A stretch of DNA of 64,000 bases, from assembly GCA_020845575.1 (NCBI GenBank), contig JADLFL010000046.1, forward strand, positions 1-64,000, read 5' to 3'. Position 1 is the first letter of the stretch. Every line of letters begins with the position of its first letter. The notes below the pieces were generated by a model. It saw only the letters and a list, made by a program, of their open reading frames with translations, was not told where the DNA came from and ran no database searches. Shown here piece after piece: positions 25,655 to 34,697 of the stretch. The stretch comes from Acidobacteriota bacterium. GTDB taxonomy: Bacteria > Acidobacteriota > Vicinamibacteria > Vicinamibacterales > Vicinamibacteraceae. Made by a program: the position numbers and the translations under genes.

Positions 25655-26410
25655 ATGCCGACCGAATCGGTCGCTCAACTGACGAATCGTTCAGAAATCG
25701 TGACGCTCCTCTCTTCCAGCGGTCCCTCCCAGCGCGTGCTCGTCGTCGAGGACGAACGCAAGCTGGCGCGCGCTCTCGACGAGGGGCTCTACCAGACCGG
25801 CTACGCGGTCACCGTAGTCTCGTCAGGCGAGGACGCGCTCGACGCGCTGACACGCGACGCGTTCGACGTCGTGCTCCTCGACGTGATGCTGCCCGGCCTC
25901 GACGGGTTCGGCGTGGTCTCGGCGATGCGACGTGCCGGCGACGCCACGCCGGTGTTGATGCTGACGGCGCGCGACACGGTCGCCGATCGCGTCGACGGCC
26001 TCGACGCCGGTGCCGACGACTACCTCGTGAAGCCGTTCGAGTGGCCGGAACTCCTCGCGCGACTGCGGGCACTCACCCGTCGCGGCCAACGGCCCGACAC
26101 GCGTCTCTCCATCGCGGATCTCCTCGTCGATCGCGTGGAGCGGATCGCGACGCGCGCCGGTCGGGACCTGCTGCTCACGCCGCGCGAGTTCGACCTGCTG
26201 GCGTATCTGCTGCAGCATGCCGGCCAGGTCGTCTCCCGCGACATGCTCGCGCGCGACGTCTGGCGACAGGACCATCGCGGCACGCCGATCGACAACGTCA
26301 TCGATGTCCATGTGGTACGCCTGCGCCGCAAGGTGGATCACGGCTTCGCACCAGCGCTGATTCACACGATTCGCGGACTGGGCTTTGTCCTGCGCGACAA
26401 TCAGCCGTAG
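25655..26410 (+). CDS. OmpR-family response regulator
   Basis: 251 residues from the ATG at 25655. The receiver domain spans about 28-140, with the acidic pair in VVEDERK, the phosphoacceptor Asp76 in VVLLDVMLPG, Thr in LMLTARD, and Lys in DDYLVKPFEW. A winged-helix DNA-binding domain of OmpR/PhoB type lies at about 155-248 (LTPREFDLLAYLLQHAGQVVSRDMLARDVW, VIDVHVVRLRRKVD, IHTIRGLGFVLR). The stop abuts the histidine-kinase ATG with no gap, so the two are an operon. The target genes are unknown; divergence from isochorismate synthase across a shared operator suggests coordination. Confidence 0.93.
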   Translation: MPTESVAQLTNRSEIVTLLSSSGPSQRVLVVEDERKLARALDEGLYQTGYAVTVVSSGEDALDALTRDAFDVVLLDVMLPGLDGFGVVSAMRRAGDATPVLMLTARDTVADRVDGLDAGADDYLVKPFEWPELLARLRALTRRGQRPDTRLSIADLLVDRVERIATRAGRDLLLTPREFDLLAYLLQHAGQVVSRDMLARDVWRQDHRGTPIDNVIDVHVVRLRRKVDHGFAPALIHTIRGLGFVLRDNQP

Positions 26411-28033
26411 ATGACACAGGGCCTGTCCGGACATCCGGCAGCATCACCGGGACGGGAGACGCAGGATGCCGCACGGCGACCGTCGCTGCACACGCGCGTC
26501 GCCGCGTGGCTCCTGCTGCTGCTCGCCGTCACGCTCGCGGCGTTCGCCGCGGTGCTCTATCTCGCCGTGTCGCACGGGTTGTGGCGGGAATTCGAGGCGC
26601 GGCTCGCACACGAAGTGGACTCCACGCGCAGCGTGCTCGCGCCGTACTGGACGCAGGACGGCATCAGCGAGCCGGCCTACATCAACCCGATTCCCGCGCA
26701 CGACCGCCGGTGGGTCGAGGTGTGGTCGCTGACCGGGGCGCGCCTCTTCCAGTCGCCGCAGGCCGTTGCGCGGCCGATCGACGGCGTCGGTCCTGCCACT
26801 GCCGCGCGCGCCGTGTCAACGCACGACGCGTCGGGCGATCCGATCCGCGTGCTCGACGTGCCCACCGGGATCATCGGCATGCCCGTGATCATGCGTGTGG
26901 TGGAGTCCGAGTCGTCGCTCCGCGCGCAGTTGCGATCGATCCGCGTGCTCATCGTCGCCGGCCTGCTCACGTGCCTGCTCGTAGCCGTACTCGGGTCCTA
27001 TGGCCTGACGCGCTACGCCTTGCGCCCGCTGGGCGATCTCGTGGCGCAGACGGCTGACATCACGGCCGATCGCCTGCACAACGGCGTGCGCATCGAGGGC
27101 GCGGACCGGGAAGTCTTCGCGGTGGCCGAGGCGTTCACGCGTACGCTGCGACGACTCGACGTGTCGTTCGAACAGGCGAAGCGGTTCAGCGCCGACGCGT
27201 CGCACGAACTGCGCACGCCCATCACGTCGATCAGGACGATCGGCCAGGTCGCGCTGCAGGATGCCACAGCGGTGTCCGGCCAACGCGAGGCCATCGCCAG
27301 CATGGTCGAAGAGACGGAGCATCTGACGCGCCTGCTCGACGCCCTGCTCCTGCTCGCCCGCGCCGACGCACAGCAGGCCCCCATCACACTCGCCCCTGTC
27401 GACCTCGGCGCGTTGACGCGCGACATCGCCGACGAATGGGCGGTCGTGTCGGAGGACAGACAGCACACGCTCCTCGTCGACGCGCCCACGCTCACGATCG
27501 ACGGCGATGCGAGCCTGCTACGCCTCGCCATCGGCAACATCCTCGGCAACGCGATCCGCTACACGCCGCCGGGCGGACGGATTCAGGTGAAGGTGTACAC
27601 CTCCGGCAACGGGCAACCGGCAACGGGCAACCGGTCGGTTCAGGCGGGCACCGGGCAGCGGGCACCGGGCACCGGAACCGCACGGCAACCGAGCACCGAC
27701 ATCGCGGCATCGCGGCATTCGGCATTCCCGATGGCGCGCGTGTCCGTGCAGGATTCGGGACCGGGGATCGCACCCGAGCACCAGGCGCTGGTGTTCGAGC
27801 GCTTCTATCGCGTGGATCGCGGGCGATCGCGCGAGGCGGGCGGCACGGGGCTCGGGCTGTCGATCGCGGCGTGGGCGGCGACGGCGCACGGCGGGCAGGT
27901 CACCGTCGAGAGCACGCCCGGCGAAGGCAGCACGTTCATGATCGACGTGCCGATCGCGAGCGCGAACACTCAGTCCGGGGCGATGCGTCCTACGCGATCC
28001 GGCGATCCCTCGCGCGACTTGAACGTCACGTAG
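26411..28033 (+). CDS. Membrane sensor histidine kinase with repeat-encoded insert in the ATPase domain
   Basis: 540 residues. TM1 about 32-55, a periplasmic sensor, TM2 about 178-200, HAMP, then HisKA with the phospho-His265 in SADASHELRTPITSI. The N-box is IGNILGNAIRYTPPGGR, the G1 box DSGPGIAPEHQALVFERFYRVDR and the G2 box GGTGLGLSIAAWAATAHGG. About 43 residues between the N-box strand and the G1 box (roughly 398-440, with SGNGQPATGNR and TGQRAPGTG) are encoded by intergenic-type heptamer repeats at 27603-27731. The insert falls between core strands, so the kinase may still fold. The 3' end overlaps the convergent YVTN gene by 64 bp. Confidence 0.9.
   Translation: MTQGLSGHPAASPGRETQDAARRPSLHTRVAAWLLLLLAVTLAAFAAVLYLAVSHGLWREFEARLAHEVDSTRSVLAPYWTQDGISEPAYINPIPAHDRRWVEVWSLTGARLFQSPQAVARPIDGVGPATAARAVSTHDASGDPIRVLDVPTGIIGMPVIMRVVESESSLRAQLRSIRVLIVAGLLTCLLVAVLGSYGLTRYALRPLGDLVAQTADITADRLHNGVRIEGADREVFAVAEAFTRTLRRLDVSFEQAKRFSADASHELRTPITSIRTIGQVALQDATAVSGQREAIASMVEETEHLTRLLDALLLLARADAQQAPITLAPVDLGALTRDIADEWAVVSEDRQHTLLVDAPTLTIDGDASLLRLAIGNILGNAIRYTPPGGRIQVKVYTSGNGQPATGNRSVQAGTGQRAPGTGTARQPSTDIAASRHSAFPMARVSVQDSGPGIAPEHQALVFERFYRVDRGRSREAGGTGLGLSIAAWAATAHGGQVTVESTPGEGSTFMIDVPIASANTQSGAMRPTRSGDPSRDLNVT
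27603..27731. repeat. Composite heptamer array inside a coding region
   Basis: CGGCAAC/GGGCAAC units (27604-27631), GGGCACC/GGGCAGC units (27646-27673) and CGGCATT-type units (about 27704-27728) follow one another, the same three unit types seen separately in spacers. The total length keeps the histidine-kinase frame open. Confidence 0.9.
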
Positions 28034-33329: not shown

Positions 33330-34619
33330 GTGCAGCATCACATCCCGCCGGATCCGTCGAACCCGCAGCGCAACGCCATGGCACGCGCCGTGGAAACGTG
33401 CGTGCACTGCGGCTTCTGCCTCACGGCCTGTCCCACCTATCAGGTGCTCGGCGAGGAGATGGACTCGCCGCGCGGGCGGATCGTGCTGATGAAGCAGGTG
33501 CTCGAAGGCACGCTGTCTGCCGATGACGCACAGCCGCACGTGGACCGCTGCCTCGGCTGTCTCGGCTGCGTCACGGCGTGCCCATCACGTGTGGCGTATG
33601 GCGATCTGCTCGTGCCGTTCCGGTCGTCGCCGGTAACCCGAGGCACATCGACTCTCGATCGCCTGCAGCGACAACTCCTGCTCGACACGCTGGAATCGCC
33701 GGCACTGTTCAGGGTGTCGGCCCGCCTGGGCGCGATCGCGAAGCGCGCCGCGCGCGTACTGCCGGCACGCGTCAGGCCGATGCTCGATCTGCTGCCGACG
33801 CGACTGCCCGAACCGGTGGCCATCCCGCCGCTCGTCAAGCCGATCGGCCCTCGACGCGCCCGGGTTGGCCTGCTTGCGGGATGCGTGCAACAGGCGCTCG
33901 GTCCGGAGATCGCCCTCACCACGGTACGCGTGCTCGCCGCCAATGGCGTCGAGGTGGTGACGCCGCCGCAGCAGGGCTGCTGCGGTGCGCTGGCGCTGCA
34001 CACGGGCGAAGCCGACCGCGCATACGACAGGGCCACGGCGCTCATCAGGGCGTTCCCGCCCGATCTCGACGCGGTCGTCACCAACGCCGCCGGCTGTGGG
34101 TCGGCGATGAAAGAATACGGACACGCCTTCGCGGGGCGCGCGCAGGAGGACGCGCTGGCGGCGTTCTCGTCACGCGTGCGTGACGTGTCGGAGTTTCTTC
34201 ACGCATTGGGCCAGGTGCCGATGCCGCCGCTCGACGAACCGCTGGTCGTGGCCTATCACGACGCCTGCCACCTCTCGCACGCACAGGGCATCCGCCGCGC
34301 GCCGCGCGCGCTGCTCGCGTCGATCCCGAACGTACGGATCGTCGACATCCCGGATGGCGACATCTGCTGCGGATCGGCAGGCCTCTACAACGTCGAACAC
34401 CCGGACATCGCGGACACCCTCGGCGCGCGCAAGGCCCGCGCCGTGGCCACCACCGGCGCCGACGTCCTGACAGCCGGCAACATCGGCTGCCTCGTCCAGA
34501 TCGCGCGCCATCTGAATGCCGCAGGCACCCCGATCCCCGTCATGCACACGATGGTGTTGCTCGACAGGGCGATACGGAATGCTCCGGCAACCGGCAACGG
34601 GCAACCGGCAACAGGATAG
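33330..34619 (+). CDS. glcF: Glycolate oxidase iron-sulfur subunit GlcF
   Basis: 429 residues starting at GTG 33330, 6 bp after glcE. Two [4Fe-4S] ferredoxin motifs (CVHCGFCLTACP and CLGCLGCVTACP) are followed by two CCG domains (QGCCGALALHTGE; DICCGSAGLYNVEHP), the normal GlcF plan. It carries electrons from the flavin subunits to quinone. The last ~9 residues (APATGNGQPATG) are encoded by an intergenic-type heptamer array, so the original stop codon has probably been lost or moved and the tail replaced. The extension is short and probably tolerated. Confidence 0.92.
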   Translation: MQHHIPPDPSNPQRNAMARAVETCVHCGFCLTACPTYQVLGEEMDSPRGRIVLMKQVLEGTLSADDAQPHVDRCLGCLGCVTACPSRVAYGDLLVPFRSSPVTRGTSTLDRLQRQLLLDTLESPALFRVSARLGAIAKRAARVLPARVRPMLDLLPTRLPEPVAIPPLVKPIGPRRARVGLLAGCVQQALGPEIALTTVRVLAANGVEVVTPPQQGCCGALALHTGEADRAYDRATALIRAFPPDLDAVVTNAAGCGSAMKEYGHAFAGRAQEDALAAFSSRVRDVSEFLHALGQVPMPPLDEPLVVAYHDACHLSHAQGIRRAPRALLASIPNVRIVDIPDGDICCGSAGLYNVEHPDIADTLGARKARAVATTGADVLTAGNIGCLVQIARHLNAAGTPIPVMHTMVLLDRAIRNAPATGNGQPATG

Positions 34620-34697
34620 CTACGGCACCGCGGTATCTGGCAGCGGGCAGGGGGTTCCACGTCGTAGCCGTCCGGTTGCCCGTTGCCGGTTGCCGGT
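34584..34697. repeat. Perfect 25-bp inverted pair of heptamer arrays between convergent genes
   Basis: 34584-34608 and 34672-34696 are exact reverse complements (CCGGCAA-type versus GGTTGCC-type units), separated by 63 bp. The left arm forms the 3' end of glcF and the right arm ends one base before the Gfo stop codon. A transcript from either side could fold into a long hairpin. Confidence 0.92.

Follow-up and report, generated by a model that had tools for sequence, protein, structure and literature searches.

How tandem heptamers of the kind that fill intergenic DNA came to lie in frame within the catalytic domain of a sensor histidine kinase, and whether they alter the enzyme, is the question raised by the gene at 26411-28033 of the window (the whole 64,000-nt stretch of DNA that was analysed). 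The kinase follows its presumed partner, and a repeat block of 129 bp lies in its 3' part:

25679-26410, plus strand: response regulator with Response_reg and Trans_reg_C domains (Pfam), presumed partner of the kinase
26411-28033, plus strand: sensor histidine kinase, 540 amino acids, with HisKA at residues 257-320 and the C-terminal part of HATPase_c at residues 441-515 (Pfam)
27603-27634, plus strand: heptamer array 1, CCGGCAACGGGCAACCGGCAACGGGCAACCGG, called by Tandem Repeats Finder as (CCGGCAACGGGCAA)2.3 with a 14-bp unit
27645-27675, plus strand: heptamer array 2, CGGGCACCGGGCAGCGGGCACCGGGCACCGG, called by Tandem Repeats Finder as CGGGCAC x4.4
27676-27731, plus strand: degenerate tail, read from the sequence as GGCAACC, GAGCACC, two 8-base GGCATCGC-like units and two GGCATTC units (27714-27727)
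27608-27727, plus strand: net inserted stretch of 120 nt or 40 residues (about N400 to F439), defined by the 35-residue spacing in homologues, its edges uncertain by a few codons

Anatomy of the repeat block

The period-7 repeats that the initial annotation had placed in frame within the ATPase domain of the kinase proved real, both by Tandem Repeats Finder and by a lag-7 test: 64 of 122 positions of the block matched at lag 7, whereas 5000 dinucleotide shuffles gave 37.2 ± 5.1 and never more than 56, and lag 7 outscored all other lags from 2 to 21. Of the three heptamer types described there, two correspond to arrays; the third amounts to only two GGCATTC units and was not called by Tandem Repeats Finder. 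Array 1 was a perfect 14-bp repeat in which GGCAACG and GGCAACC alternate, and array 2 contained an odd unit, GGGCAGC, and the only canonical four-tract G-quadruplex motif of the block (27646-27669, coding strand, identified as a sequence motif). The insert itself was a direct repeat, with no palindrome in it. The heptapeptide GNRQPAT assigned to three units is the product of a perfect GGCAACC run, but with its alternating units the kinase reads GNGQPATGNR.

Base composition also set the block apart: GC at codon positions 1, 2 and 3 was.67,.74 and.77 in the insert versus.72,.50 and.88 upstream in the kinase, and the coding score along the gene was negative in the insert only. By base composition per codon position, the insert is foreign to the codon use of the kinase. 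The GGCAACC and GGGCACC units are stop-free in all six frames, as had been pointed out, but this gives them no special permit to grow inside genes, since at 69% GC stop-free units are ordinary (77% of random heptamers of the same composition).

Comparison with homologues and predicted structure

The extra sequence lies between the N-box and the G1 box: these are 75 residues apart here, versus 35 in 25 of the 26 measurable homologues of the order and 39 in the remaining one. The earlier figure of about 43 extra residues describes the block (43 codons); relative to homologues the net gain is 40 residues. The closest orthologue, in genome G059 (matching record: MAG Acidobacteria bacterium SCN 69-37), was 52-53% identical and syntenic, with a response regulator and a divergent chorismate-utilising gene, both upstream, common to the two loci. 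It was free of the insert, VSTPAGAVRIDVQD standing opposite VYTSGN...PMARVSVQD in the alignment. A conserved, non-repetitive insert in orthologues, which the initial annotation had named as evidence to the contrary, was looked for in this comparison and was not seen.

In solved kinases such as 4i5s, a turn of about 5 residues occupies the position of the insert (alignment). An AlphaFold model, run with two sequences and weak overall (mean pLDDT 48.7), placed the insert at residues 399-439, with pLDDT of about 27, between strands 390-398 and 441-448; Foldseek matches to this weak model support the kinase fold only. The modelled insert site is a beta-hairpin turn of the ATPase domain, outside the ATP-binding boxes, and the predicted role of the insert is most likely that of a passive disordered loop.

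Every box of the HisKA/HATPase_c sensor kinases was found by Pfam and alignment: SHELRTP with the phospho-acceptor His, the N-box GNILGNAIRYT, G1 DSGPGI, F ERFYRVD and G2 GGTGLGLSI. Since all these motifs are intact and no decay was seen downstream of the insert (identity to the orthologue of 63.5% after it versus 59.7% before it), the proposal that the repeats disable the kinase appears unlikely from the sequence.

At the other end of the gene, the C-terminus was about 25 residues longer than that of the orthologue (27970-28033), as if an old stop had been lost, and the 3' end overlapped a convergent gene for a YncE-like beta-propeller protein by 64 bp, tail to tail. An N-terminus of the same kinase (60% identity) was also seen at the end of a contig labelled Anaerolineae MAG TGS_CHL14, in which this contig is possibly a contaminant.

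Heptamer arrays in the genome

Statistics for the genome itself were obtained from a 457-kb sample, window included, and from pattern searches. Period-7 arrays numbered 37 in the sample, versus at most 4 for any other short period not a multiple of 7. A home-made gene finder marked about 92% of the sample as coding, yet placed 42 of the 50 arrays between genes, and in 31 of these 42 the G-rich strand was directed away from the nearest gene (Fisher p = 0.0018). The GGCAACSGGCAACSGGCAAC pattern, representing the GGCAAC type, gave 332 matches in the genome versus 2 for the reversed control. In 59 related genomes of the order, the same pattern was frequent only in G029 (32 matches), with 1-3 matches in two others. 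G029 belongs to another family of the order and has GGCAACC arrays mixed with CCGGTAA; its richness in GGCAACC may be either convergent or transferred.

In the kinase composite, a GGCAACS cassette of four units is followed, after about 10 nt, by a GGGCACC cassette of four units and then by the GGCATTC/GGCATCGC tail. The order of array 1, about 10 nt and array 2 was found at many loci, and the tail resembled that of intergenic composites such as L163. Parts of the block recurred elsewhere: its first 79 bp at C72:2018-2094 (89% match), 31 bp of array 1 from 27604 identically at 1963-1993 of the window, and array 2 letter for letter at three loci (L151, L152 and L162). A search of the rest of the genome for a donor copy of the whole 120-nt composite returned partial composites only. 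Heterogeneous 32-bp cassettes were present as exact copies at unlinked sites, CCGGCAACCGGCAATGGGCAACCGGCAACCGG at 12 and CCGGCAACCGGCAATCGGCAACGGGCAACCGG at 6, counts from a search pattern that varied at fixed positions only and that leave out the frequency of other variants. These exact cassettes carry CCGG at both ends, and at 20 cassette sites no shared flanks or target-site duplications were detected (0-5 bp, not above chance). As independent slippage events would hardly arrive at an identical odd unit in an identical position, the shared mixed cassettes are a strong hint that copying, rather than local slippage alone, distributed them, and copying is the better account.

Many intergenic arrays formed inverted pairs, and the sequence between the partners varied by locus. 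Some pairs occupied both edges of a gap, with GGCAAC on the left and GTTGCC on the right (34584-34612 with 34675-34697 in the window; L065:11468-11556; L080:10929-11044). Arrays also supplied C-termini, for example that of a GlcF-like protein (33330-34619); the last residues of this iron-sulfur protein, NAPATGNGQPATG, were array-derived, and its closest congener ends differently.

In-frame inserts in other proteins

The central proposal of the initial annotation, that repeats of intergenic type create protein sequence, was strongly supported by the orthologues lacking the insert, by the same cassettes in intergenic DNA and by further proteins of this genome. At least six proteins besides the kinase carried in-frame inserts, and in four of the five compared with relatives the insert was absent from the relatives:

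AMP-ligase/acyltransferase: insert of 19 amino acids, sense orientation, absent in four congeners (70-74% identity)
UvrD/PDDEXK helicase, linker: insert of about 13 amino acids, sense orientation, relatives without insert
POTRA/BamA-like protein: insert of 54 amino acids, sense orientation, absent in five relatives
Membrane glycosyltransferase-like protein: insert of about 45 amino acids relative to G001 and G002, sense orientation, G004 intermediate
FG-GAP/UnbV protein: heptamer insert in a loop, sense orientation, congeners with different heptamers of their own in that loop
CofH_C-domain protein: in-frame insert, sense orientation, identified from the sequence of this genome

Kinase included, the orientation was sense in 7 of 7 cases (p = 0.008 if orientation were even), a count biased towards sense because some of the cases were found by searching the insert peptide in open frames; the kinase, the ligase and the helicase are the three from the unselected 457-kb sample. 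One in-gene array (L072:4105), which may be a chance match, was left out of the count. Translated in sense, the arrays give GNRQPAT or GHRAPGT; the antisense peptides contain Cys, Leu and Val. A 7-nt unit yields one cyclic peptide whichever of a strand's three frames is read, so that the peptide depends solely on orientation; the sense bias and the loop position can therefore serve as simple tests of the tolerance of proteins for new sequence. The kinase insert is one case of a recurrent invasion of proteins by repeats, with nothing peculiar to the kinase.

Unit turnover among congeners

The loop of the FG-GAP/UnbV protein (loci L172, L233, L234 and L235) carried a species-specific unit in each of the four genomes compared: GGCAACC/GGGCACC here, GGGAACC in G004, CGAACGC and GGCCGAT in G001, and GGCTCAG and CGACTGC in G002. 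An Lhr-like helicase loop carried CGACTCC in G002 and CTGCAGG in G001. Across a syntenic stretch, G001 carried 41 arrays and G002 carried 37, each genome with units of its own, and the arrays of the two coincided at common gene junctions more often than by chance (p = 0.006; 0.02 with only spacers longer than 40 bp considered). Arrays were unevenly spread, with none in one 120-kb stretch of G001 and 41 in another of 180 kb, so that their absence from a small sample says little. A single array in G004 (L133:3711-3768) showed a gradient of units from GGGAGTC through GGGAACC to GGCAACC and is a possible intermediate of unit change.

Unit turnover may reflect either repeated strikes on the same sites or rewriting of old arrays. 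It is doubtful that a cell-wide templated process writes the cassettes and replaces the units in concert in each species, refilling the same loops and junctions.

Origin and consequences of the kinase insert

Probably, a copied composite of intergenic type was fixed in frame in the kinase gene and is tolerated as a passive, near-neutral loop in an active kinase. A composite of the kind that fills the intergenic regions of this lineage would have become established in the gene mainly as ready-made cassettes copied in, whether by templated insertion or by array-to-array recombination, rather than by slippage from a single local seed alone. Its survival would be due to its position on a surface turn, a net length that keeps the frame, and a sense strand coding for a hydrophilic, disorder-prone peptide (GN[RG]QPAT / GTGHRAP), and it would now act as a floppy loop of almost no consequence.

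Growth in place is the less likely course, in which a chance seed in the loop codons (CCGGCA..GGGC) would have expanded by polymerase slippage in steps of 7 or 14 nt and diverged into the unit types with no outside copying. Array 1, itself a perfect 14-bp repeat, could be accounted for by a local seed and slippage, given the likeness of the orthologue's loop DNA, ACGCCGGCAGGGGCC, to the first unit, CCGGCAACGGGC; the unit gradient in G004 fits mutation with slippage, and slippage is the process to which heptamer over-representation has been ascribed (PMC4692102, discussion). What such growth accommodates poorly is array 2, identical at three other loci down to its odd GGGCAGC unit, the recurrence of the composite order at many loci, and the exact heterogeneous cassettes at 12 and 6 unlinked sites. 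These cassettes, discrete and with CCGG ends, would suit a MITE-like mobile element inserted by a transposase, as would the similar peptide in frame in unrelated proteins (cf. the Rickettsia palindromic elements) and the many inverted pairs of intergenic arrays. Such an origin is nonetheless very unlikely: the 20 sites showed neither target-site duplications nor common flanks, the insert has no palindrome or terminal inverted repeats (only separate arrays pair in inverted orientation), the sequence between paired arrays changes from locus to locus, and arrays of other units abound in congeners.

Copying into a tolerant loop also has to be weighed against readings in which the insert matters to the kinase. 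Selection for tuning, whether by slower movement of the ATP lid, an altered dimer or partner contact, or translation slowed by a G-quadruplex, would agree with the location inside the catalytic domain and with the four-tract motif of array 2 on the coding strand, and a rise of NeuO activity with repeat number has been reported (PMC13001214). Yet the insert shows no adaptation in its codons, inserts like it are found in unrelated proteins and the hairpin turn is not among the ATP-binding boxes, making tuning quite improbable. Somewhat less credible still is a contingency locus modelled on neuO, which is switched by slippage of a coding (AAGACTC)n array (PMC13001214): as the unit length is not divisible by 3 and essential boxes lie downstream of the array, gain or loss of one unit would shift the frame ahead of the G1 box and turn the kinase off. 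At about 4 units the arrays are, however, short, and they are heterogeneous, both of which favour stability; they lie in the middle of the protein rather than at the 5' end; and like inserts are found in enzymes that serve general metabolism and repair, namely the ligase, the helicase and the POTRA protein. Decay of the gene into a pseudogene, or an assembly artefact as the source of the block, is the least credible reading and very remote: the genome is a draft in 78 contigs and the kinase has the C-terminal overrun and convergent overlap, but the frame is open throughout, the C-terminal part is undecayed, no array reaches the length of a sequencing read, and coding arrays of this kind occur in other intact genes and in single-contig assemblies of congeners.

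Relationship to known repeats

G-rich heptamers, GGGNATC in Xanthomonas and GGGGA(C/T)T in Nostoc, form many short, dispersed and mostly intergenic arrays (Rehm et al. 2015, PMC4692102); 7-11% of the Xanthomonas arrays lie inside ORFs, and the heptamers are under-represented on the coding strand of ORFs (PMC4692102). The present arrays share with them the genome-wide excess of period 7, arrays of commonly about 4 units, the mostly intergenic location, the inverted pairs and the orientation of the G-rich strand away from the nearest gene. G-quadruplex formation in vitro is a further trait of that class, for which a canonical motif is present in array 2 only. The units here are not of the GGGNATC type; with GGCAACS and GGGCACC as units, these are the same kind of feature and a different repeat family. 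They further differ in belonging to another phylum, in forming stereotyped composites of two or three cassettes, in their insertion into folded domains, checked here against insert-free orthologues, and in the location of all seven coding cases on the coding strand, contrary to the reported under-representation. A literature search for heptamers in Acidobacteria or Luteitalea returned nothing. The repeat class is already known from Xanthomonas and Nostoc; what is new is a variant of it, in which composites are inserted in frame and their units turn over.

The kinase provides an orthologue-controlled case in which non-coding repeat DNA becomes protein within a folded catalytic domain, and the phenomenon recurs in unrelated proteins of one genome and in the same loops of sister species. 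The identical mixed cassettes, together with turnover at orthologous sites, make the origin of heptamer arrays and the genome-wide uniformity of their units testable.

Other translated repeats offer partial parallels. The neuO gene of the E. coli K1 phage CUS-3 has one long 5' (AAGACTC)n array of 3-53 units and is phase-variable (PMC13001214). As in neuO, a heptanucleotide repeat is translated with three units per heptapeptide; unlike it, the present arrays are short, mixed and internal to the protein, in a comparison of one genome per species. Rickettsia palindromic elements, of about 100-150 bp, occur within the reading frames of unrelated proteins (Ogata et al. 2000, summarised in PMC10969869). 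As far as described in that secondary account, they resemble the present case in that an intergenic-type repeat adds a similar peptide to unrelated proteins, and differ from it in that the repeats here are tandem heptamers with no palindrome or target-site duplication and with a unit that differs between sister species. The TAACTGA direct repeats of marine Beggiatoaceae (PMC4679880) are likewise dispersed intergenic heptamer arrays, with another unit and in another lineage.
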